Shown here piece by piece: positions 10,930 to 21,128 of a stretch of 64,000 nt of DNA. Positions within the stretch are counted from its first letter, which is position 1; the number at the start of each line of letters is the position of its first letter. The position numbers and the translations under genes are program-made. The notes beneath the pieces are model-generated. The model was not told the origin of the DNA, did not search any database, and saw only the letters and a program-made list of their open reading frames with translations. This DNA is from Geoglobus acetivorans (GTDB lineage: Archaea > Halobacteriota > Archaeoglobi > Archaeoglobales > Archaeoglobaceae): positions 1,240,001 through 1,304,000 of the forward strand of contig NZ_CP009552.1 in assembly GCF_000789255.1 (NCBI RefSeq), given 5' to 3'.

Positions 10930-12147
10930 ATGGGAAAAACATACGTAAAAATCTTGTTTTCAGCAGTGCTGGTACTGGCACTCGTTTATGGTGCAGAAGC
11001 GATAAGCATAGGAATCTCTCCGTCATTCATTGACTTTAAAGACCTTCTTCGAGGGCAGGTTGTGGAGGGCAGGGCGAGGATATACAACACACAGGACAGC
11101 CCCGCTCACTTCAAAATAGAAACAGGTGAGTTTTCGGAATGGGTGGAGGTTCTGAACACAGCAGGAGAAGTGATTAATGAGATCGAGGTCCCACCCAGCG
11201 GATACCACGAGATAATCGTGAGATTGAAAATACCTGAAGATGCTTCCAACGGAAATTACAAAATCCCGGTGTTCTTCGTCTCCTCTTCTGAAGGCGGTAA
11301 AGTGGGTGTTGGGATGAAGGCTCCCCTTAATCTGGTATTCACAGTCACAGGAGAACAGAAAAAATCCGTGAAGCTTATGCTCTTCACGATAGAGGATACT
11401 GAAGTCGGAATTCCTGCAAGAATGGAGGTGGACATACTCAATAATGGAAACGTTGTTGCTGACCCTACTGTCGAGATAACAGTCTTCAATCCAGATGGCA
11501 TTGAGGTGTGGAGGAACCAGACGGCTGTGAAAATAAAACCCCAGGAAATAAAAGCTGCGAAAATAAGCTGGGACACTTCGAAGATTGCTGAGGGAACATA
11601 CACAGGCAGACTCAGATTGCTGATGGACGGGAAAGAAATCCTTACCGAGGAACTCAAGTTCAATGTTTTTGAAAAAGGAACACTTACGGCAAGAATGGAG
11701 ATTCTGAACATTTCCGTCGAGAAAGTAATCCAGCCAGGAAAAATGTCGAAAGTTGAACTGGGAGTGAAAAACACCGGCCAGATAGATACGGAAGTCAGAA
11801 TGAGGATCGAGATCTACAACGGTTCCGAGTTCATTGACCTGTCTGAAAGCGACCCGCTGTGGCTTGAAAAAGGACAAACCGGAATCCTGACAGCATATCT
11901 GAAAATAAGTGAACCGGGAAACTACACTCTCAAACCAGTCCTGTCATACGGGGGCAGAATAGCAAAACTGAGCGGCATAACTGTGGAAGTTACCAGTCAA
12001 ATGGTCAGACAGGAGAGTGCATCGAACAGCAGCGCTGGAAATGACGAAAACTCCAGAATTCCAGGGTTTGGCATCTATTCAGCAATGCTGATTGCTGGAA
12101 CCGTCCTTTTGCTTATGAAACTCAGGATGAAAGGAAAGAAACGATGA
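10930..12147 (+). CDS. Secreted Ig-like repeat protein with PGF-CTERM anchor
   Basis: A 405-residue exported protein. The N-terminal signal peptide (about residues 1-26, ending near AEA) is followed by three or four beta-sandwich segments of the NEW3/Ig-like kind. The C-terminus is a PGF-CTERM tripartite signal: Ser/Asn-rich stretch, IPGFGIYSAMLIAGTVLLL, then a basic tail, the mark of archaeosortase A processing and lipid anchoring. The start is ATG 10930, not the upstream TTG, because GAGGGGTGAT (10917-10926) is the ribosome site. It opens the surface island and shares the island promoter motif. It could be an anchor or chaperone-like partner for filament subunits; no enzymatic motif is seen. 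Confidence 0.75.
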   Translation: MGKTYVKILFSAVLVLALVYGAEAISIGISPSFIDFKDLLRGQVVEGRARIYNTQDSPAHFKIETGEFSEWVEVLNTAGEVINEIEVPPSGYHEIIVRLKIPEDASNGNYKIPVFFVSSSEGGKVGVGMKAPLNLVFTVTGEQKKSVKLMLFTIEDTEVGIPARMEVDILNNGNVVADPTVEITVFNPDGIEVWRNQTAVKIKPQEIKAAKISWDTSKIAEGTYTGRLRLLMDGKEILTEELKFNVFEKGTLTARMEILNISVEKVIQPGKMSKVELGVKNTGQIDTEVRMRIEIYNGSEFIDLSESDPLWLEKGQTGILTAYLKISEPGNYTLKPVLSYGGRIAKLSGITVEVTSQMVRQESASNSSAGNDENSRIPGFGIYSAMLIAGTVLLLMKLRMKGKKR

Positions 12148-12152
12148 GTTGT

Positions 12153-12254
12153 CATAACTAAATCCCTAATTTATCTTTATTAACCGGTGGCTTTAAACGC
12201 TTAATCTGCCAATAACCGATTTTCTAACGGCTTTATTCGGAAATTAACTAAGTA
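12153..12254 (+). promoter_or_regulatory. Surface-island promoter motifs, copies 2 and 3
   Basis: CATAACTAAA at 12153-12162 repeats the decamer at 10841-10850. AATTAACTAAGTA at 12242-12254 is identical over 13 nt to 14051-14063. Between them are TTTAAACGCTTAAT, which could be a TATA element, and two TAACCG-type words. The gene downstream (12299) has a strong AAAGGAGGTGA ribosome site. Confidence 0.5.
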
Positions 12255-12298
12255 TGATGAATTATCATTACAGATATGTGAAAAGGAGGTGAAAAAGC

Positions 12299-13423
12299 AT
12301 GAAAAAAAATATTTTGTTGCTTGCAGTGCTGGCAGTGAGCCTGATTGGCATTGGAACAGCAAACGCTATAGATGGATATTCCAGCCAGGAGAAAATAAGC
12401 GTTACAGTGGAAACAGATCCCCTTGGATCCCCGCCATGGATTAAGGCGAAGTGGGAACTCTGGCTTGATCCAAACACAGACGATGAGTTCATACTCACTG
12501 ACGCCGATCCAGCAAGGCTCGGCACCCAGGGAGACATCGTTCCAGGAGACGGCGCCACATTCTATTCGTTCGTAATAGTATCTGACCCCAACGGAATCGA
12601 GGACATATCGGATGGAAACGTGTATGTTGATGTGTACCACCCAACATGCGGATATGGAGATGGCAGCTTCAAATACCAGGTCCACGCAACTGAAATTAAG
12701 CTTGTTAGAGACCAGCTGGGAATTCCCGATCTGGACGCCCCTGTTTTCAAGGGATATTCAGTCAGAGAGCTTGTTGAATTAGGCGTTGCCACCGGATACT
12801 TCTCGTCTGAGGATGCAAGCGAATTGCTGGAAGAACTCCACCAGAATGAGGCAAGAATCTACGCCGCCGAGCTTTTCATCGATTACCATCAGGCCTACGG
12901 ATGGTACATGGTCAAGGCATGGGCAACAGACAACAACGGTGCCACATCTGAAAAGTTCACCAACTACTTTGAAGTTAGGCCAATGCTTGCCTATGAAACC
13001 GACTTCAACTCAGTCCACTTCACGAACGTGAAAGTGGGTTACAGAGCACAGGTCAGCGGAGACTACGACATGAACACATCTGACAGGCCCACAATAAGGA
13101 ATATCGGTAACACCCCGATAGCAGTATCTGCGTATGCATCTGACGCGACAAGCGCTACTGACCCGCCAAAGAAGTTCGAAGACGTCTTCGACATGAGGTT
13201 CCTTGATGAGGACCTGATGCTCCCATCATGGGAGTGGACCAAGTTCAGCAACCTGCTGTGGCCGTGCAACACAACAAAGATAGACTTCAGCCTGCACCTG
13301 CCCAACGGTGCTCCGGCTACCGACTATACGGGATACATACTGCTCGAATACCAGGCAGTCATAGTGCCTTGTGAGCCACTGGATGTCGTGAGCGATCCCG
13401 TGCAGGTTGTGCCACCTACGTGA
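12299..13423 (+). CDS. Secreted protein of unknown family (island structural candidate)
   Basis: A 374-residue exported protein that I do not recognise. The signal peptide is about residues 1-23 (MKKN, hydrophobic core, ending TANA). The mature part is beta-rich and acidic, contains four cysteines and a short helical insert (VRELVELGVATGYFSSEDAS), and has no C-terminal membrane anchor or sortase signal. It has the strongest ribosome site of the island (AAAGGAGGTGA, 8-9 nt before the ATG), its own promoter motif and a T-rich terminator after it. This looks like a separately transcribed, abundant product. I infer a structural or substrate-coating role beside the DUF1102 proteins; a binding protein is also possible. 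Confidence 0.65.
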   Translation: MKKNILLLAVLAVSLIGIGTANAIDGYSSQEKISVTVETDPLGSPPWIKAKWELWLDPNTDDEFILTDADPARLGTQGDIVPGDGATFYSFVIVSDPNGIEDISDGNVYVDVYHPTCGYGDGSFKYQVHATEIKLVRDQLGIPDLDAPVFKGYSVRELVELGVATGYFSSEDASELLEELHQNEARIYAAELFIDYHQAYGWYMVKAWATDNNGATSEKFTNYFEVRPMLAYETDFNSVHFTNVKVGYRAQVSGDYDMNTSDRPTIRNIGNTPIAVSAYASDATSATDPPKKFEDVFDMRFLDEDLMLPSWEWTKFSNLLWPCNTTKIDFSLHLPNGAPATDYTGYILLEYQAVIVPCEPLDVVSDPVQVVPPT

Positions 13424-13436
13424 TATTATAAGCCAT

Positions 13437-13468
13437 TAAAATTTTTTATTTTTGTTAATTTTTTGTTA
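13437..13468 (+). terminator. T-rich terminator after the 12299 gene
   Basis: Consecutive T-tracts (13442-13446, 13449-13453, 13459-13464) lie 14 nt after the stop. They insulate the large secreted protein from the next gene. Confidence 0.55.
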
Positions 13469-13487
13469 CTGAACATAGTTAAGTAAC
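13465..13487. promoter_or_regulatory. Inverted repeat GTTACT-N11-AGTAAC with island motif
   Basis: GTTACT (13465-13470) and AGTAAC (13482-13487) are perfect inverted repeats. The element contains TTACTGAAC, the reverse complement of the GTTCAGTAA seen at 10855, and TAGTTAAGTA, an 8-of-10 match to the TAACTAAGTA core at 12245 and 14054. It lies upstream of the membrane-bound HTH gene at 13540, so it may be its autoregulatory site. Confidence 0.45.
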
Positions 13488-13539
13488 AATAAAATAGTAT
13501 TAAATATGATAAATACCATAACCTATTCTGGTGGGGACT

Positions 13540-13983
13540 ATGAACAGTCTTACTTCGATAATATCCAATGAAAGGAGGAAACTCCTCCTGAGGTATCTCC
13601 TGCACAACAACGGTCGGGCAACCCTTGAAGATGTTATCACATATATCTGTGAAAAAGAAGGAGATCCCCAGAAAAGAAACAGAAAAAGCGTCTATATCAG
13701 CCTGAAGCAAACCCACATACCCAAGCTCGAAAGAGCCAGAATTGTATACTACGATAGATCAAGCAACATGCTGCACCTCGAAGAGAGGTATCTCAACGAC
13801 GTGAGGATGTACATCGAATTTGTTGAAGGTGGAGATATAAGCTGGAGCAGGTATTATCTCGTTCTCGGCAGCATATCTGCTCTGGGAAGCCTGCTGGTTA
13901 TGGATACTCTCGCAATTGTCATATCGATTGCTCTGGTAACAAGTTCTTTACTTCAGACAATGAAGGTCAGAAAAGTTTTCTAA
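13540..13983 (+). CDS. HTH protein with C-terminal membrane helices
   Basis: A 147-residue protein. The first ~90 residues are basic and predicted helical, with a winged-helix look (SIISNERRKLLLRYLLHNNG, then EDVITYICEKEG and KSVYISLKQTHIPKLERARI), similar to the DUF7344-type HTH found in archaeal surface-gene clusters. The C-terminus has two hydrophobic helices (about 103-120 and 121-140), so it should be a membrane-tethered DNA-binding protein. The start is ATG 13540 behind GGTGGGG (13530-13536). Its place between the large secreted protein and the DUF1102 genes suggests it senses envelope state and regulates the island. Function inferred. Confidence 0.65.
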   Translation: MNSLTSIISNERRKLLLRYLLHNNGRATLEDVITYICEKEGDPQKRNRKSVYISLKQTHIPKLERARIVYYDRSSNMLHLEERYLNDVRMYIEFVEGGDISWSRYYLVLGSISALGSLLVMDTLAIVISIALVTSSLLQTMKVRKVF

Positions 13984-14003
13984 TCACAGTTCAGAAACTT
14001 AAT

Positions 14004-14063
14004 CGGCGATTATCGTCGAATTAACCGGAAAGAAGGGAGGAGAATTCAGGAATTAACTAAGTA
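14004..14063 (+). promoter_or_regulatory. Promoter region of the DUF1102 operon with island motif, copy 4
   Basis: CGGCGATTATCGTCG (14004-14018) is a near-perfect 15-bp palindrome. Downstream, AATTAACTAAGTA (14051-14063) is identical to 12242-12254. The DUF1102 gene starts at 14111 behind GAGGTGA. These are the only recognisable elements in the 13984-14110 spacer. Confidence 0.45.
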
Positions 14064-14110
14064 ATTGTTCATCACAATTAATTCTAACAAAATGGTTGAG
14101 GTGAAGCAAA

Positions 14111-14626
14111 ATGTTCGAAAGGCTTGTGGGAGTCGTGCTCCTGATCGGAGCACTTGTGTTTGCCTTAGGGATTGGGGCAGATTTTGCCAGCTATGATGCC
14201 GACAGAAGCGTGCATGTTGCGGTCGTGGCTGACGATCAGGAACTAATCGATCTGGATCCCGGGCAGCCGTATGCGTACATAGGTAATGACGGAAAGCTGT
14301 ACATCGATATAAGCGACAACAACGAGAATTACCCTGACGGCGGGGGTCTTGGAATCAGTCCGGATGCAAAGTATTCGTTTGACTGCATGTTCAACGTTTC
14401 AAACCACCTGTGGGAGGAGAATGTAACAATAAACGTAACGATCACATCCAATAACGATCTGGTCAAGCTGTACACAAATGATCCGGATGAAGCAAGCACC
14501 TCCATCAACTTCAACGTTCCCCAGGGAGAAGAAGTCTGCGTTGGAATGAGCTTTGATGGAGACGGAAAATCACCAGGAGATAGCATAGAGGGGCAGCTCA
14601 CAATACATGCTGAACCTGCCGAGTAA
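14111..14626 (+). CDS. DUF1102-family secreted protein, paralogue 1
   Basis: A 171-residue protein with an N-terminal hydrophobic segment (about residues 4-22) followed by the block shared by all paralogues here: FASYDADR, VVADDQELIDL, QPYAYIGNDGKLYIDIS, then SNHLWEENVTINVT. It fits DUF1102, a family of small archaeal secreted proteins of unknown function. The mature chain is acidic and beta-rich, with two or three N-glycosylation sequons and no C-terminal anchor. It is the first gene of a run of five, followed after 14 nt by the next paralogue. I infer that it is a SipW-processed fibre subunit comparable to TasA or the archaeal bundling pilin AbpA. The homology to those is structural expectation, not shown here. 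Confidence 0.8.
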   Translation: MFERLVGVVLLIGALVFALGIGADFASYDADRSVHVAVVADDQELIDLDPGQPYAYIGNDGKLYIDISDNNENYPDGGGLGISPDAKYSFDCMFNVSNHLWEENVTINVTITSNNDLVKLYTNDPDEASTSINFNVPQGEEVCVGMSFDGDGKSPGDSIEGQLTIHAEPAE

Positions 14627-14640
14627 CGGGGTGCTGACCT

Positions 14641-15183
14641 ATGAACAAAATAATATACCTGGTGATGTTCTCCATCGCAATAGCACTTGTCTCAGGGCTG
14701 AGCGCAGATTTCAGAATGTACCATGCTGAAAGGAATTTCACAATAGCAATTGTAACAGATGACCAGGAACTCATCGACCTGACACCAAACCAGCCATACG
14801 CATTCATTGACAGCGACAATGGAGAACTCATAGTCAGGTTCGACGCAGAGAACGAGAATTACCCTGGGTACGGGAAGGGTGTAAGCCCTGACTCAAGATA
14901 CGTGTTTGACGATGTCTTCTGCGTCTCAAACGACCTGTGGGAAGAAAACATGACAATAGGCATGGATATTGATCTGTCCAGTGAACTTCAGGGAATCGTG
15001 AAGATATACTCGGATAAAAGTGACGAGGGCAACACTGATCCCGCCAACGCAACATCCAACCTCCACGTTGTGATAGAGAATGGAGATAAGGCGTGCATTG
15101 GGTTCGTCATAGATACCACCGGCATAAAAACGGGCGACTACACCGGAGAAATGACCATGCATGCGTATCCATATCAGGAATAA
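14641..15183 (+). CDS. DUF1102-family secreted protein, paralogue 2
   Basis: A 180-residue paralogue of the preceding gene: hydrophobic signal (about 3-20), then ADFRMYHAERNF, IVTDDQELIDL, NQPYAFIDSDNGELIVRFD and SNDLWEENMT. It diverges mainly after residue 110, where it has its own loop (KSDEGNTDPANATSN), and ends in a strand (GDYTGEMTMHAYPYQE) that mirrors the EGQLTIHAEPAE end of paralogue 1. The cysteine pair (VFCVSN and KACIGF) is at the same places as in paralogue 1 (DCMFNV and EVCVGM), so an internal disulfide is likely. It starts 14 nt after paralogue 1, within the same transcript. Confidence 0.8.
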   Translation: MNKIIYLVMFSIAIALVSGLSADFRMYHAERNFTIAIVTDDQELIDLTPNQPYAFIDSDNGELIVRFDAENENYPGYGKGVSPDSRYVFDDVFCVSNDLWEENMTIGMDIDLSSELQGIVKIYSDKSDEGNTDPANATSNLHVVIENGDKACIGFVIDTTGIKTGDYTGEMTMHAYPYQE

Positions 15184-15206
15184 CTTAATTTTTTGAGGTG
15201 TTTTCA

Positions 15207-15707
15207 ATGAAAACAGCGATAACAGTGGTCCTAATAATTTCATTTTTATTAATAACCGGGGTCAGCAGTCATTTCAAGGACTATACCGCAAACAGGGGTT
15301 TTCATGTCCAGGTTGTTGCGGATGATCAGGAGCTGCTCAGACTTGTTCCCAACCAGCCCTATGCATACATTGGGCAGGATGGGAAGCTGTACATAGATAT
15401 TTCACCGTCCCATCCCGAATATCCCGGATACGGGGCTGGATTGAGTCCTGACACGCTGTACGCATTTGATTGCATGTTCTACGTGAAGAACACACTGTGG
15501 GAGAACCAGACAGTTACATTCGTCGTGAATTCATCATCTCCCAGCGTGATGATGTACACCCCAACATCAGCAACAGCATATTCTCCAGAAACTGCCACGC
15601 AACACCTGATATTCCAGCTTGGATGGATGGAAGAGACCTGTGTCGGTTTTGTATTCGACATGAGGAACGGACAGATGGTGGGGGTGTCTCTCAATGCCAC
15701 AATCTAA
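15207..15707 (+). CDS. DUF1102-family secreted protein, paralogue 3
   Basis: A 166-residue paralogue: signal segment, SSHFKDYTANRGF, VVADDQELLRL, NQPYAYIGQDGKLYIDIS, GLSPDTLYAFDCMF. It shares the cysteine pair (DCMF and EETCVGF). The C-terminal strand is shortened (ends SLNATI), lacking the HAEP end of paralogues 1, 2 and 4. The start is ATG 15207, since GAGGTG (15195-15200) sits 6 nt before it; the GTG at 15198 is inside that site. Its last 14 nt overlap the start of paralogue 4, implying coupled translation. The DNA encoding QPYAYIGQDGKLYID is nearly identical to that in paralogue 4, so recent duplication or conversion is likely. Confidence 0.8.
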   Translation: MKTAITVVLIISFLLITGVSSHFKDYTANRGFHVQVVADDQELLRLVPNQPYAYIGQDGKLYIDISPSHPEYPGYGAGLSPDTLYAFDCMFYVKNTLWENQTVTFVVNSSSPSVMMYTPTSATAYSPETATQHLIFQLGWMEETCVGFVFDMRNGQMVGVSLNATI

Positions 15708-17262
15708 CCCTAAAAAGATCTGGACATTTGCAGGACTGCTGGTAACGCTCCTCATAGCATCAGCATACGTTATTGGTATAACGGCAACATTCACAGAATA
15801 CACTGCAAAGAGAAACTACAGCATTGCTGTTGTTTCTGATGATCAGGAACTGATAGACCTCAAACCCCTCCAGCCCTATGCATACATTGGGCAGGATGGG
15901 AAGCTGTACATAGACTTCAGCACGAACAACCCAAAATGGAATGAGGGAAAGGGAGAAGGTCTCAGTCCGGATAGCAAATACGCTTTTGACAGAGTATTTG
16001 AAATTTCAAACGACCTGTGGGATGGTGTCTGTATAAACGTAACCGTAACCTCAGAACCTGAAGAGATTAAAACATATATTGAGAATTATCTGAACGCATC
16101 TCAGAAAACCGTTTTGCAGATACTTCCCGGAGAGAGAAAGGAGGTCGGTCTCCTTATTGAATCAGAAGAGCTTGGAAGTATAGATGGCAGACTCAGAATC
16201 CATGCAGAACCGTGCAACGGTGCTGTGCCGACCCCAACGCCGTCTCCATCACCAACACCGGAAGAGACTCCTACCCCAACTCCAACACCGGTACCGCAGA
16301 ACTTTGAATGGAGGGTTGAACTTCCAGAAAGGGCTCCCAAGGGCGACATAGTGTTCATGTTCGACGTAACAGGCAGCATGCTGGAAGAGCTGAATCAGGC
16401 AAAGGTCAGTGCGATAGACCTCATGACAGACATACGACTTCTGATTCAGGATTCACGATTCGGTGTTGCGAGTCTTGCAGATTATCCGAAACTGTACCTC
16501 TACTCAGAAAACTACGGCTACGGATGGCCATACGGTAAAAATTACGGAGCACCCGGAGACTATCCGTGGAGAATGGATTCAGACCTGACCTACGACATAA
16601 ACGCTGCTGCAGGTGCAATTAACAATCTCGAGATCAAAAATGGCCTTGACGAACCTGAGCCGTACGCCTATGCTGTCCACAAGGCGATGAGTGAGATGAG
16701 CTGGAGAGATGACGCAAGGAAAATTCTGGTCATACTCGGAGATGCTCCGCCCCACAACATGCCAAACGGCCTGAGCGTTTTCGAAAACAACTATGGTGGG
16801 GATCCCGGGGACGACTGGCTCATGAACACTTCAGATGATGTTGACTATGTGAATGCAATTAACTCTGCAGACGCCTTCGGATTAACGATAATATCAATCT
16901 ACGCAGGCAGAGATGACGAGTTCAGCAACGATGCAAGAACGAACTTCATGTACATGGCCGACATGACCGACGGCGCATATGCTGAGCTGCAGGGAGACCT
17001 GAGCGCTTTACCGACAATTATTGAAAACAAGATAAAGGAAGTTGCGGAGCAGCCGATAGGTAACCTGACCCTAAGGGCCAGCGCTCCGCCGGGGTGGACT
17101 GTCACATGGACTCCTGACAAGTACACGAATGTGGCGTGGGGCAGCCAGGTTACGTTTTCAATTCAGATAACACCACCTGAGCCACACACTCCGCAAACAG
17201 TAACCATAGAACTGCTTGCAGATGACATTGTGATTGATACCATAGACATTCTGGTGTCATGA
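15694..17262 (+). CDS. DUF1102 - Pro/Thr linker - vWA fusion protein
   Basis: A 522-residue exported protein. Residues ~10-30 are a hydrophobic signal and ~35-172 a DUF1102 domain (DDQELIDLKPLQPYAYIGQD, SNDLWD). Residues ~178-201 are a Pro/Thr linker (repeated PTPTP and PSPSP), ~218-440 a von Willebrand A domain, and ~445-522 a beta-sandwich with no anchor. The vWA MIDAS is visible: DVTGSM (Asp224, Thr226, Ser228) and the later LGDAPPH aspartate, so metal-dependent ligand binding is plausible. It overlaps paralogue 3 by 14 nt. The fusion ties the filament-type domain to an adhesive module, suggesting a tip or cross-linking subunit. That role is inference. Confidence 0.82.
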   Translation: MPQSNPKKIWTFAGLLVTLLIASAYVIGITATFTEYTAKRNYSIAVVSDDQELIDLKPLQPYAYIGQDGKLYIDFSTNNPKWNEGKGEGLSPDSKYAFDRVFEISNDLWDGVCINVTVTSEPEEIKTYIENYLNASQKTVLQILPGERKEVGLLIESEELGSIDGRLRIHAEPCNGAVPTPTPSPSPTPEETPTPTPTPVPQNFEWRVELPERAPKGDIVFMFDVTGSMLEELNQAKVSAIDLMTDIRLLIQDSRFGVASLADYPKLYLYSENYGYGWPYGKNYGAPGDYPWRMDSDLTYDINAAAGAINNLEIKNGLDEPEPYAYAVHKAMSEMSWRDDARKILVILGDAPPHNMPNGLSVFENNYGGDPGDDWLMNTSDDVDYVNAINSADAFGLTIISIYAGRDDEFSNDARTNFMYMADMTDGAYAELQGDLSALPTIIENKIKEVAEQPIGNLTLRASAPPGWTVTWTPDKYTNVAWGSQVTFSIQITPPEPHTPQTVTIELLADDIVIDTIDILVS

Positions 17263-17306
17263 GGCGATCAAAATGCATTCCCATATTTTTTTGAAGGGTG
17301 AGTGAA

Positions 17307-18338
17307 ATGAAAACATACATTAATCTGCTGATACTCCTGACCCTCAGTTTCGGACTTCTTGTCGGGTCATCCAGTCATTTTAAAGAATTCGGTGCTGAAA
17401 GAAACTTTTCTGCAAATGTTACCGAATTGAATGAATCCCTGATCTCATGCCTGTGTCCCGAAAATAAAACCCGTTATCTGAAGTCAGGCGATACGTTCAC
17501 GCTCCTCAACATCACAAACAGGCTTGGAGAGGAAGCCACTTTTTATGTATATACTGACTCATCAAGTATCAATCACGAAAGTGAGTTTTTCCTCTCACCA
17601 AACGAGAGTGTGGAGGTTAAAGCAACATTTTACGGGCTGCCCGGTTTTTATTCGATAACAGCCAGGGTATCCGCAGACTGGGCGAACGGGTCCGCAGAGC
17701 TTTATGCATGCACGATCAACATTTCCAGTCCGAGACTCGAAATCGAAAAGCACCTTATGAGTGGAAAGGAGTCCGTAAAGGTTGGAGAAAAGGAATACTG
17801 GACTTTCAGAATCCTGGTGAAAAATCCAGGAACCTCAGACGATTTTGTGATAAAGGATACAGTACCTGCCGAACTCGAAATTCTTGAAATTAGCCCGTCA
17901 TCTGGCAGTTATGAAATACTGAGCAATGGCATGGGCAATTCCGGCTCTTCCACAATCACGTGGTATGTGCATCTGGAGAACGGAGATGTTGAGTGGCTCG
18001 ACGTAAACGTTACTACCAAGCAAAACCCAGCGTGCAGGCAGGAGTTCACATCTCCGGGAGCATACTGCCTGAATGACGGTGCAGAAGTTGTCGGATATGA
18101 TATCAGGAGCAATCCGATATGCATAACCGTGTACTCAGACTGTGATTCGGGGAAATGCGATGAGAAATGCTGTGATTCAGACGGGTGCTGCGATGAAGAC
18201 TGTGATGGTTACGATGGCTGCAATGACTCACACAACTGCCACAATGAAAGCTGCGATTCGGATGGATGCTGCTATGAAAATCACGAGTGTCAGGACGGGA
18301 ATGGCAGTAAAGAAAAACGCAGAGGGCATCGCTCATGA
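17307..18338 (+). CDS. DUF1102-like N-terminus, DUF11-like domain and Cys-rich tail
   Basis: A 343-residue exported protein. The signal and first mature residues (GSSSHFKEFGAERNFSANV) copy paralogues 1-4, but the DDQEL block is lost and replaced by an Ig-like domain. Residues ~145-270 form a DUF11-type repeat domain (IEKHLMSGKESVKVGEKEYW, VKNPGTSDDFVIKDTVP). The last ~70 residues hold about 14 cysteines with many Asp, Gly and His, including the word CDSDGCC twice, then a basic end (KEKRRGHRS). The tail could be disulfide-knotted or bind metal. The start is ATG 17307 behind AGGGTGAG. Its stop overlaps the signal peptidase ATG (ATGA), so the two are co-translated. Confidence 0.75.
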   Translation: MKTYINLLILLTLSFGLLVGSSSHFKEFGAERNFSANVTELNESLISCLCPENKTRYLKSGDTFTLLNITNRLGEEATFYVYTDSSSINHESEFFLSPNESVEVKATFYGLPGFYSITARVSADWANGSAELYACTINISSPRLEIEKHLMSGKESVKVGEKEYWTFRILVKNPGTSDDFVIKDTVPAELEILEISPSSGSYEILSNGMGNSGSSTITWYVHLENGDVEWLDVNVTTKQNPACRQEFTSPGAYCLNDGAEVVGYDIRSNPICITVYSDCDSGKCDEKCCDSDGCCDEDCDGYDGCNDSHNCHNESCDSDGCCYENHECQDGNGSKEKRRGHRS

Positions 18339-19399
18339 GGAGGGGCTTTGCACTCATAATAAGCATTTCAATCCTGATTTTTTCATTTTCCACTGTTCTC
18401 GGGGCCCTTATGAACAGACCGGTTTTCGTATCATACATAACCTCAAACAGCATGGAGCCAACACTGAGCAAAGGGGATCTGATTTTCATGACTCCCGTAT
18501 TTTTCAGCCTTGAGAAAGGAGACATAATCGTATTTTACTCGAATGGAGAATGGGTCTGTCACAGAATTTTTTCAGAGATTTCAGGAGGGTACATAACCAA
18601 AGGAGATAACAATATCGCCACCGATCAGCAGAGCGGAAAGGACCTCGTAAAAAAAGAGTTTATAGCAGGTAAGGTGATAACATTCCTCGACAGACCTGTT
18701 AAGATTCCTCAGGTTGGTAATTATGTGAGCGAGGTTTCCGAATTCGCATGGAAACACAAAATGCTGATGCTGACGCTGTTCTTCCTGGCAGGTTTGGCAG
18801 AAATTATGCTGGGAGGGGATAAAAAGCGCAGAAAAAAGAGGAGATCGAGAAAATCACTCAGGCTTCATTCAGACCAGGTTTTCCTGATCCTCACATTCAG
18901 CCTTCTTCTTCTGGCAACCTTCTCGGGAACAATATGGATTGGAAGTGAGAAGATACAGTACGGCGTAACATCAGCAGGCGGTTTGAGAGAGGAATGGGTG
19001 CTTCCCGGGCAGGTATTCCAGAGAAATCTGACGATCTCCAACAACCTGCATTATCCAATGATTTACGCTGTAAAGGGTGGAGAAAATTCCGCCATAGATG
19101 GGTATTTTGTCCTGTGGCCAGGGGAGTCAAAAACACTCACAGTAACCATAAAAGCTCCGATAGAGACGAGACTGTATGAGGAGAAAATAATTGTTGCAAA
19201 GTATTTTCCATTGCTGCCCCCTGAGATTGCCTACAGACTGTTCTCGATAAATGAGTATATCCCAGTACTCATGATTGATCTGGAAATACTCGCCTTACTG
19301 GCAGTTATCCACATGTTCGGTGGGGAGAAAAAGTATTACAGAATAAGGATCCAGCCAGGGTCCTTCAAACGAAAAATGAGGAACTTCCAGTTGAAATGA
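18335..19399 (+). CDS. SipW-like signal peptidase I with extra beta domain
   Basis: A 354-residue membrane peptidase. After an N-terminal helix (about 5-25) comes the catalytic Ser39 in TSNSMEPTLSKGD and His76 in EWVCHRI. The Ser-His pair is that of ER/archaeal and SipW-type enzymes, unlike the Ser-Lys of bacterial LepB. YITKGDNN supplies the conserved Asp. A second helix (about 143-160) and a very basic loop (KKRRKKRRSRK) precede a third helix, an extracytoplasmic beta-sandwich (about 205-300) and a final helix, an addition not found in plain signal peptidases. It directly follows the five DUF1102-type genes, so it most likely cleaves their signals. Confidence 0.87.
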   Translation: MRRGFALIISISILIFSFSTVLGALMNRPVFVSYITSNSMEPTLSKGDLIFMTPVFFSLEKGDIIVFYSNGEWVCHRIFSEISGGYITKGDNNIATDQQSGKDLVKKEFIAGKVITFLDRPVKIPQVGNYVSEVSEFAWKHKMLMLTLFFLAGLAEIMLGGDKKRRKKRRSRKSLRLHSDQVFLILTFSLLLLATFSGTIWIGSEKIQYGVTSAGGLREEWVLPGQVFQRNLTISNNLHYPMIYAVKGGENSAIDGYFVLWPGESKTLTVTIKAPIETRLYEEKIIVAKYFPLLPPEIAYRLFSINEYIPVLMIDLEILALLAVIHMFGGEKKYYRIRIQPGSFKRKMRNFQLK

Positions 19400-19410
19400 A
19401 ACTGAATTTT

Positions 19411-19453
19411 GTTCAGTAATTCAGTTTATTCATCATTAATAACGTTTCGAAAC
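19411..19453 (+). promoter_or_regulatory. Promoter region with GTTCAGTAAT and palindrome GTTTCGAAAC
   Basis: GTTCAGTAAT (19411-19420) repeats 10855-10864. GTTTCGAAAC (19444-19453) is a perfect 10-bp palindrome 20 nt before the ATG at 19474; nine of its bases recur at 20812-20820 before the second small winged-helix gene. TTTCGAAA also occurs inside unrelated genes, so the evidence is moderate. Confidence 0.35.
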
Positions 19454-19473
19454 AAGATGATGGGGGGAGGAGG

Positions 19474-20487
19474 ATGAAATACGCAAAAATTGTAACCGGA
19501 ATGTTTCTGGTTCTTGCAGTATTATCGGCCTACTTTCTGATAACGTACTGGGACATACCTGACGAGGAGAAAATGAAAAAGAAGGTGGGATCATTCGGGA
19601 TTGAAATCAGATTCGTTCCAGTTGCTGAGATAAACTCTCCAACCATAATATTCGGAGACAGAGATACAGTCAGAGGAGGAGATATATTCTTCGCAAACCT
19701 CGTTAAAAGATTCTGGTTCGAATACGAAATTAAAGCATCCCCAGGCATCACAGGAGACTATTCAATCAAAACATACCTGAAACCTTCAGAAAGCAAGGTA
19801 CTCCCCGAATGGAAAAGGGAATTACCCTACAGCTATGAGGGTGTGATCGAGAGCCAGCAGGCCGGAAAGCTCACCATAGACATTTTCTATGTCAGACAGC
19901 TCTGGGATAGAATCCAAAAGGAAACCGGACTCAACTACAACACTCCGATTGTCGAAATCGAAACCACAGTCAGCATAATAGGCGACATCAACGGGGAGAA
20001 AATCAAGAGAGAGTACAGGCACGTTTCCTCGATGACGGTGGGAAAGACGCTGAAGTTCGGCAATCTTGAGTTCAGCAAAAGCGAGAATATCGAAAGGGAT
20101 ATCGTCGTTCAGAATTACATTTCCACCCCATTCGGCAATGCAAAGCCATCCACCATCAAGACGGTGCTTGCGGCTGTTCTCATCACAAGCATATCGGCAA
20201 TAATTGTCCTGAACAGAAAATTACTGGCTAGGGGAATAAACTCGAAGATAAACAATGGCAGACTCGACAGGAGGTTCAGAAAGAAGTACGACTCTCTGAT
20301 AGTTCAGGCGAGAAAGATATCTCCGGCTGCAGGAAACACAGTGTTTCTCAGGAGCCTTGAAGACGTTGGAAAGATTGCCTACGAGCTTGAGTCCCCGATT
20401 ATAGAGACCGATGAGTACCTGGCCGTGATGTCGAACGGGAATGCATACATTTACAGAAAGGGTGACGGATATGAAAAAAAGAAGTGA
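19474..20487 (+). CDS. DUF5305-like membrane protein
   Basis: A 337-residue protein with an N-terminal membrane helix (about 5-25), a large extracytoplasmic beta-rich domain (~30-225), a second helix (~230-247, TVLAAVLITSISAIIVL) and a cytoplasmic tail of ~85 basic residues. The pattern and motifs such as FWFEYEIKASPGITGDYSI and YNTPIVEIETTVSIIGDI match DUF5305, a family I know beside SipW-type peptidases and DUF1102-like proteins in archaea. It starts behind a GGGGGGAGGAGG ribosome site. Its last 17 nt overlap the first small winged-helix gene. Likely an envelope-side assembly or sensing partner of the peptidase; no catalytic motif is seen. Confidence 0.7.
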   Translation: MKYAKIVTGMFLVLAVLSAYFLITYWDIPDEEKMKKKVGSFGIEIRFVPVAEINSPTIIFGDRDTVRGGDIFFANLVKRFWFEYEIKASPGITGDYSIKTYLKPSESKVLPEWKRELPYSYEGVIESQQAGKLTIDIFYVRQLWDRIQKETGLNYNTPIVEIETTVSIIGDINGEKIKREYRHVSSMTVGKTLKFGNLEFSKSENIERDIVVQNYISTPFGNAKPSTIKTVLAAVLITSISAIIVLNRKLLARGINSKINNGRLDRRFRKKYDSLIVQARKISPAAGNTVFLRSLEDVGKIAYELESPIIETDEYLAVMSNGNAYIYRKGDGYEKKK

Positions 20488-20707
20488 ACTTGAAATAATG
20501 ATCAGCATACTCGAAATTGCACGGGATGAAGTTCTGAAAACCAGAATAGTTTACGGTTCAAACCTCAATTTCAAGATCGCAACAAGATACATTGACCGTC
20601 TTTCGGAAATGGAGCTCATAATGAAATACCGGAAGGAAGGAAAGACATACTACAAAACCACTGAGAAAGGTTTGAAATTCATAAGAAAATACAAGGAAAT
20701 GTTCTGA
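20471..20707 (+). CDS. Small winged-helix DNA-binding protein
   Basis: A 78-residue basic protein of the archaeal HTH_45-like winged-helix type. KTRIVYGSNLNFKIATRYI forms the helix-turn-helix, followed by a wing and TYYKTTEKGLKFIRKYKEM. I start it at ATG 20471, behind GGTGA (20461-20465), instead of the upstream in-frame codon, which lies inside the preceding gene. It overlaps the DUF5305-like gene by 17 nt, so it is co-expressed with it. It has a close relative 145 nt downstream. The pair may regulate the surface island; this is inferred from position only. Confidence 0.8.
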   Translation: MKKRSELEIMISILEIARDEVLKTRIVYGSNLNFKIATRYIDRLSEMELIMKYRKEGKTYYKTTEKGLKFIRKYKEMF

Positions 20708-20811
20708 ATTCGAATAAAAGGTATTTCACGGGTTTTTCACTTATTGCGGTAATTATGATGAGTTAGCAAAATTATTAATCATAGTAAAATGAAAAGAAAA
20801 TTATCGAAGAT

Positions 20812-20820
20812 GTTTCGAAA
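20812..20820. promoter_or_regulatory. GTTTCGAAA half of the 19444 palindrome
   Basis: GTTTCGAAA lies 32 nt before the ATG at 20853 and matches the left nine bases of GTTTCGAAAC at 19444-19453. An AT-rich TATA-like stretch (TATATC, AATAATAT) follows. It may be an autoregulatory site; low certainty. Confidence 0.3.
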
Positions 20821-20852
20821 TATATCTTCTAAAATAATATAAGGTGAATACA

Positions 20853-21128
20853 ATGCGCCGTACGAGATTCGACATAGTGGTGGATATAATCTGCACGTTA
20901 ATGAATGGAGGTGCAAACAAGACCAGGATAGTGTATAATGCCAACCTGAACTTCCATCTCGTCGAGAAATATCTGAAATACCTGAAAGATAAAGGATTAA
21001 TTTCAGAAAAGCAGGTTAACGGAAAAACACTCTATTTTCCCACAGAAAAGGGTGTTGAACTCGTCCAGATATACCGAAGGCTTTCAGAAGAAGATTTTAT
21101 AGATGGAAAAATATCGACATTCAGGTAA
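20853..21128 (+). CDS. Small winged-helix DNA-binding protein, paralogue
   Basis: A 91-residue relative of the 20471 gene: NKTRIVYNANLNFHLVEKYL is the HTH, followed by KDKGLISEKQVNGKTLYFPTEKGVELVQIY. ATG 20853 is preceded by AAGGTGA (20841-20847), preferred over GTG 20844. It has its own promoter and ends three nt before the convergent deacylase gene. Two near-identical HTH cores (TRIVYxxNLNF) in adjacent genes suggest recognition of related sites, perhaps as heterodimers. Confidence 0.8.
   Translation: MRRTRFDIVVDIICTLMNGGANKTRIVYNANLNFHLVEKYLKYLKDKGLISEKQVNGKTLYFPTEKGVELVQIYRRLSEEDFIDGKISTFR

Follow-up and report, generated by a model that had tools for sequence, protein, structure and literature searches.

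AbpA of Pyrobaculum calidifontis (7ueg) was described as TasA-like (PMC9674648) and as donor-strand-complemented, and the Sulfolobus threads (Saci_0406, 7pnb) are an archaeal donor-strand fibre built of subunits processed by signal peptidase I (PMC9715654). In the TasA-TapA-SipW system of Bacillus, a Phe at P2' was described as making the TasA site, which the archaeal-like SipW cleaves, a poor substrate for ordinary LepB (PMC10269814), and tapA, the gene of the TasA-fibre initiator, overlaps sipW by stop/start codons (PMC10151520). A further pilus, deposited as 9p0a with the name 'Pilin', is labelled 'Natrinema sp. J7-2 Tafi pilus' in Foldseek; our literature search found no description of Tafi and no paper on DUF1102, and the publication behind 9p0a may already state part of what follows. 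Here, a gene island of Geoglobus acetivorans that encodes tandem DUF1102 proteins is compared with these systems. It lies in a 64-kb stretch (the window) of a genome consisting of a single contig of 1,860,815 bases. The island very probably builds a Tafi-like, donor-strand-complemented surface fimbria, and, judged by sequence, the haloarchaeal Tafi pilus is its closest known system, rather than TasA.

Gene order of the operon

The operon (window 14111-20707, + strand; Table 1) encodes four DUF1102 proteins (D1-D4), a fifth relative (D5), a Ser-His signal peptidase (E) and a DUF5305 membrane protein (F), bordered on one side by the membrane-tethered DUF7344 regulator C and on the other by winged-helix genes. 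The intergenic gaps from D1 to G range from -17 to 74 bases, so that D1 to G form one operon by spacing, and 127 bases separate C from D1.

All elements claimed in an earlier note on this DNA were found where it had placed them. The N-terminal block that it assigned to five consecutive exported proteins reads x-F-x2-[YF]-x-A-x-R in D1-D5, and the DDQEL and QPYA[YF]I motifs are present in four of the five; D5 and E do overlap by ATGA (18335-18338); E is a Ser-His signal peptidase by TIGR02228 (70.4 bits, cut-off 51.85) with invariant catalytic residues; the DUF5305-like membrane protein downstream is F (51.7 bits, cut-off 29); the two small winged-helix proteins, G and H, both belong to HTH_45; and the membrane-tethered helix-turn-helix protein corresponds to C, a DUF7344 winged helix followed by a C-terminal transmembrane segment. 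The VWA domain of D4, the DUF11 domain and Cys-rich tail of D5, and the ectodomain fused to E had been overlooked.

Homology to haloarchaeal Taf fimbrial proteins

D1-D4 (14111-17262) match PF06510 DUF1102 at 109-149 bits (gathering cut-off 22.2), so the tandem of DUF1102 proteins reported earlier holds for these four; D5 misses the Pfam model, and comparing profiles shows it to be a remote relative (97.5%). The DUF1102 alignment matched the haloarchaeal Taf alignment over its full length (hhalign 99.3%, E 1.1e-20, 171 columns), and the Taf alignment, searched against the PDB, returned 9p0a at E 3.7e-32, the link from DUF1102 to 9p0a thus running through the haloarchaeal Taf intermediate. Set side by side, D1 has GADFASYDADRSVHVAVVADDQEL where a haloarchaeal subunit has GTGAFTSVSADRSISVQVADDADAF; the haloarchaeal block is [AG]-x-F-x2-[YV]-x-A-x-R, and the motif is carried by about 105 of 131 family members, which are not independent of one another. 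The 9p0a chain counts 215 amino acids in sequence and 188 in the Foldseek target, a difference that would fit a mature chain beginning at the AFSSVEADR block. The most likely role of DUF1102 is that of a pilin domain.

The gene neighbourhoods agree with this homology. A haloarchaeal locus (L043) encodes TafA, TafC, TafE and TafF, all named 'fimbrial' by NCBIfam, together with DUF7344, a signal peptidase and DUF5305, and Tafi loci share with the window the DUF7344 protein, a signal peptidase with an extra ectodomain, DUF5305, and TafC-like and other multi-domain minor subunits. The differences from Tafi are that the window proteins fall far below the NCBIfam TafA/C/E/F equivalog cut-offs (155-420; best 23-28 bits), that their signals lack the twin-arginine motif of haloarchaeal pilins, and that their minor subunits bear a VWA domain and a Cys-rich tail, not LamG. 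A paralogue of D5 at a second DUF1102 locus of the genome matches NCBIfam TafC at E 1.3e-6. In a quick tree, D1 grouped with first genes of other Archaeoglobi loci, D2 with second genes and D3 with third genes (support 81-98), and so the subunit positions seem to have kept separate roles. Since the seed taken from D4-VWA came to match the subunit family as the hidden Markov model (HMM) search was iterated, the D labels there are not subtype calls, and subunit identity was re-checked by Pfam and hhalign.

Predicted fold and relation to TasA

The mature D1 was modelled by AlphaFold2 from an alignment of 37 sequences (mean predicted local distance difference test score, pLDDT, 86.9; predicted TM-score 0.81) as a nearly all-beta protein whose first 7 residues lack order in the monomer. 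When this model was searched against the PDB, in line with the fold comparison that the earlier note had proposed, the sole Foldseek match below E 0.001 was the AbpA bundling pilin 7ueg (E 6.4e-4; TMq 0.50, root-mean-square deviation 5.4), followed by FimA structures and, lower, by the Saci_0406 threads and 9p0a. DUF1102 proteins are thus predicted to have a pilin-class fold of the AbpA and FimA kind. Identity to AbpA is 8%, with no detectable sequence relation, and the model suggests that D1 is related to AbpA, though not closely; a moderate similarity would fit a difference between the monomer and the strand-complemented form of the fibre, short of proof. The Sulfolobus threads are a weak fold match with no shared sequence family shown, and they are not known to have a dedicated signal peptidase.

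The earlier note had read the island as a TasA-like surface fibre; the fibre part is supported by fold and by gene co-occurrence, and the nearest system is Tafi, not TasA. A TasA/AbpA locus proper, with the DUF1102 proteins as divergent TasA/camelysin members, would explain why AbpA is the top fold match and why a SipW-type peptidase and DUF5305 also stand at the TasA-type locus of the same genome, yet the window DUF1102 proteins match neither PF12389 nor TIGR04088, and profile comparison gave 16% with TasA-like proteins versus 99% with Taf. Family membership is thereby largely refuted and was rejected, and this alternative is very unlikely. With Bacillus, the locus shares a Ser-His SipW-type peptidase within the operon and a Phe at P2' (PMC10269814), as well as the overlap of the peptidase gene with a minor-subunit gene, sipW with tapA as E with D5 (PMC10151520); it differs in the peptidase beta-sandwich, DUF5305 and DUF7344 as well as in subunit family. 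A type IV pilus was also rejected, as the operon genes include no assembly ATPase and no class III prepilin signal.

Export and processing

The DUF1102 proteins carry signal peptides, in which RR is invariant among haloarchaeal pilins and no twin-arginine motif is found among window subunits. The RR suggests export by Tat (twin-arginine translocation) in haloarchaea and its lack suggests Sec here, so the window subunits are likely, by their signals, to be exported by Sec rather than Tat. A Phe stands two residues past the likely cut in 32 of 37 alignment rows, and the small residue ahead of x-F that makes the site cleavable is retained in most subunits. The motif is missing from the third subunit in Thermococcus (L071:9631) and from haloarchaeal TafF, which has a C-terminal transmembrane segment; from their sequences, such members could be membrane-anchored bases that accept a strand and do not donate one.

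These motif-less third-position members, which could stay anchored, would also suit a reading of the DUF1102 proteins as monomeric membrane-anchored sensors or adhesins beside a peptidase for general secretion. That reading is extremely unlikely, as the genome encodes other signal peptidases besides this one, which is always adjacent, and most subunits keep the cleavable site.

Signal peptidase and its ectodomain

E belongs to the archaeal, endoplasmic-reticulum and SipW kind of signal peptidase. Its residues Ser39, His76 and Asp91 do not vary among 15 aligned relatives, and a second extracellular part sits between its third and fourth transmembrane segments. This part was modelled with a pLDDT of 93.6. 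Foldseek found nothing below E 0.001 in the PDB for the ectodomain, its weak matches being the Ena2A endospore appendage and MSP-like proteins, and a homology to chaperones was dropped for this reason. The peptidase of the TasA-type locus (L078:9051-9893) is shorter and too small to hold the ectodomain, which therefore belongs with the Taf/DUF1102 type. The three fimbrial loci of this genome, namely the one in the window, the second DUF1102 locus and the TasA-type locus, each have a signal peptidase of their own, and Archaeoglobi with DUF1102 hold 3.2 signal peptidases per genome versus 1.6 in those without it, a comparison whose P-values ignore shared ancestry and are indicative.

It is possible, if doubtful, that E is an assembly machine whose ectodomain would catch cut subunits and pass the freed strand, with DUF5305, to the growing fibre. 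Equally tentatively, cleavage might be coupled to strand exchange in a one-membrane counterpart of chaperone-usher in Archaeoglobi, Thermococci and haloarchaea.

A frameshift in a run rich in A splits the peptidase gene of the second DUF1102 locus (L007:7706-8723; G000:C1 ~1813705-1814722, - strand) into parts of 221 and 147 amino acids, and its relatives are intact single genes; the split is a sequencing error, decay or slippage.

Minor subunits

The VWA domain of D4 contains FDVTGSM, with a metal-ion-dependent adhesion site-like motif (DVTGS). CARDB is also found among the multi-domain minor proteins of haloarchaeal loci. By analogy, the VWA domain of D4, the DUF11 domain and Cys-rich tail of D5, and the LamG and beta-helix domains of haloarchaeal subunits resemble adhesive end-pieces. 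Since D5 overlaps E as tapA overlaps sipW, D5 is a candidate initiator, and a tip role is equally possible on the same analogy.

A surface coat, an S-layer-associated layer or a cell-cell linker made of short donor-strand-linked oligomers, with the VWA and Cys-rich proteins as the working parts, would fit both the several different subunits per operon and the minor proteins that combine domains (VWA in the window; LamG, beta-helix and CARDB in haloarchaeal loci). Such a short assembly is unlikely, since the homologous haloarchaeal system was deposited as a pilus (9p0a) and NCBI calls its members fimbrial. For the biofilm-matrix system proposed in the earlier note, a surface fibre with adhesin-like minor subunits is likely, and a matrix role goes beyond the evidence.

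In haloarchaeal Taf/DUF1102 loci, LamG lectin and beta-helix subunits were observed (L043:4983, L046:3526, L046:8932), which suggests exchangeable adhesin ends. In the roughly 60-residue tail of D5 (window 18140-18335), Cys, Asp, Asn and His are extremely frequent, with counterparts in short Cys/His tails of Thermococcus relatives and a Cys/His-rich insert in L069; metal binding or cross-linking is possible.

Distribution of the module

In a search across the phylum, 58 of 394 genomes had DUF1102, among them somewhat fewer than half of the Archaeoglobi and, with weaker scores, haloarchaea. By local HMM annotation, the set C, two to three DUF1102 genes, E, a D5-like gene and F was found in 20 distinct Archaeoglobi loci, and the same set in five loci of Thermococcus metagenome-assembled genomes (L071, L073-L076), some ended by a contig edge; F is sometimes divergent on the other side, and C was not found in every locus. 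Exactly three DUF1102 genes occur in six of the seven genomes of one Thermococcus genus group. Co-location with the signal peptidase in haloarchaea was judged on seven fetched loci, which contain the same components in varied order; these were picked mostly for a nearby DUF5305, and the unselected figure is a DUF5305 gene within 8 kb of 36 of 54 haloarchaeal DUF1102 matches, versus less than 1% expected by chance. A Halocatena plasmid holds the minimal set, its record naming the genes DUF1102, signal peptidase I and DUF5305. The peptidase was in the cluster of every fetched, uncut DUF1102 locus with enough flank, in line with the co-occurrence that the earlier note had put forward, and a gene set kept across three archaeal classes excludes chance.

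The same genome holds a second DUF1102 locus (L007:5954-10289). It is nested in the Thermococcus clade of the subunit tree (support 99), which suggests lateral transfer; on this placement, its lateral acquisition is probable. A true TasA/camelysin locus lies elsewhere in the genome (G000:C1:630566-635325; L078:6067-10825); it encodes two SipW-cognate signals and comes with a signal peptidase of its own, DUF5305 and an HTH_45 regulator. The PF12389/TIGR04088 matches of this genome fall at G000:C1:631007-633007.

Accessory and neighbouring genes

A and B co-occur, adjoining the module in a subset of Archaeoglobi loci to which they are restricted. A has two transmembrane segments and a CARDB match at the cut-off (22.7 bits); its tail, reported earlier as PGF-CTERM on an Ig-like protein, is PGF-CTERM-like by eye, and no library model matched it. 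B matched no family in the libraries searched, and its strong translation signal, as described earlier, was confirmed. Genes of ordinary housekeeping appearance, named by eye, flank the island on both sides, and a tRNA search of the window found none.

Table 1. Genes and domains of the island, in window coordinates
Feature	Position	Strand	Description
A	10930..12147	+	Secreted Ig-like/CARDB protein, signal peptide, C-terminal PGF-CTERM-like transmembrane tail; accessory
B	12299..13423	+	Secreted 374-aa protein, accessory; strong Shine-Dalgarno AAAGGAGGTG before ATG
C	13531..13983	+	DUF7344 winged-helix regulator, 66.7 bits; C-terminal transmembrane segment 118-136; conserved first module gene
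D1	14111..14626	+	DUF1102 fimbrial subunit type 1 (probable), first subunit position; 149 bits
D2	14641..15183	+	DUF1102 fimbrial subunit type 2 (probable); weak NCBIfam TafF match, E 3.8e-5
D3	15207..15707	+	DUF1102 fimbrial subunit type 3 (probable); 119 bits
D4	15694..17262	+	DUF1102 domain, Pro/Thr linker, VWA domain, NPCBM_assoc domain; adhesin-like minor subunit
D5	17307..18338	+	TafC-like minor subunit: N-terminal block, DUF11 domain, Cys-rich tail; possible initiator or tip
E	18335..19399	+	SipW/ER-type signal peptidase, four transmembrane segments, C-terminal beta-sandwich ectodomain
E ectodomain	18935..19258	+	Residues 201-308, six-stranded beta-sandwich (predicted)
F	19474..20487	+	DUF5305 membrane protein; two transmembrane segments around ~200-aa ectodomain; putative assembly/anchor platform
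G	20471..20707	+	HTH_45 winged-helix regulator, 69.9 bits; start overlaps F end
H	20844..21128	+	HTH_45 winged-helix regulator, 84.2 bits

Assembly model and implications

The island most likely encodes a Sec-exported, SipW-type-processed fimbria. Homology and gene order, together with the class of the fold and the conservation of the processing site, are shown by the data, and polymerisation, the role of each minor protein and the assembly mechanism are inferred. In the proposed mechanism, Sec would export the subunits and the dedicated peptidase E would cut just ahead of x-F, which places Phe at P2' and would lay bare the conserved strand F-x2-Y-x-A-x-R-x-h-x-V; the freed strand would leave its own subunit and fill the groove of a neighbour, so that D1-D3 polymerise. 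D4 (VWA) and D5 (DUF11, Cys-rich tail) would be minor subunits at a fibre end, D4 as an adhesin and D5 as initiator or tip by analogy with TapA, while the beta-sandwich of E and the DUF5305 ectodomain may keep the growing fibre at the membrane, order it or anchor it there. Expression would be controlled by the membrane-tethered winged helix C and by G and H.

Several points weigh against this model. The fibre is deduced for these DUF1102 proteins from genes and models, donor-strand exchange from structure predictions that cover monomers, and the roles of F, the E ectodomain, D4 and D5 from analogy. The direct HMM search of the PDB with DUF1102 gave chance matches and no pilin; 9p0a ranks just 22nd among the fold matches of D1 (E 0.029), and the TM-score to AbpA is just 0.50. 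When the DUF1102 profile was set against TasA-like proteins from this genome and its relatives, similarity was limited to the signal peptide.

The Tafi-like fimbria would give testable functions to domains of the locus, with DUF1102 as a pilin domain, DUF5305 as an assembly or anchor protein and DUF7344 as a regulator of donor-strand fimbriae. It would extend Tafi-type fibres from haloarchaea to Archaeoglobi and Thermococcus, which are hyperthermophilic and probably export the subunits by Sec and not Tat, and the ectodomain fused to the peptidase is a concrete candidate for fibre assembly across a single membrane. In conclusion, one small module, a dedicated signal peptidase with DUF5305, would serve both the TasA/AbpA and the Taf/DUF1102 subunit families in the same cell.

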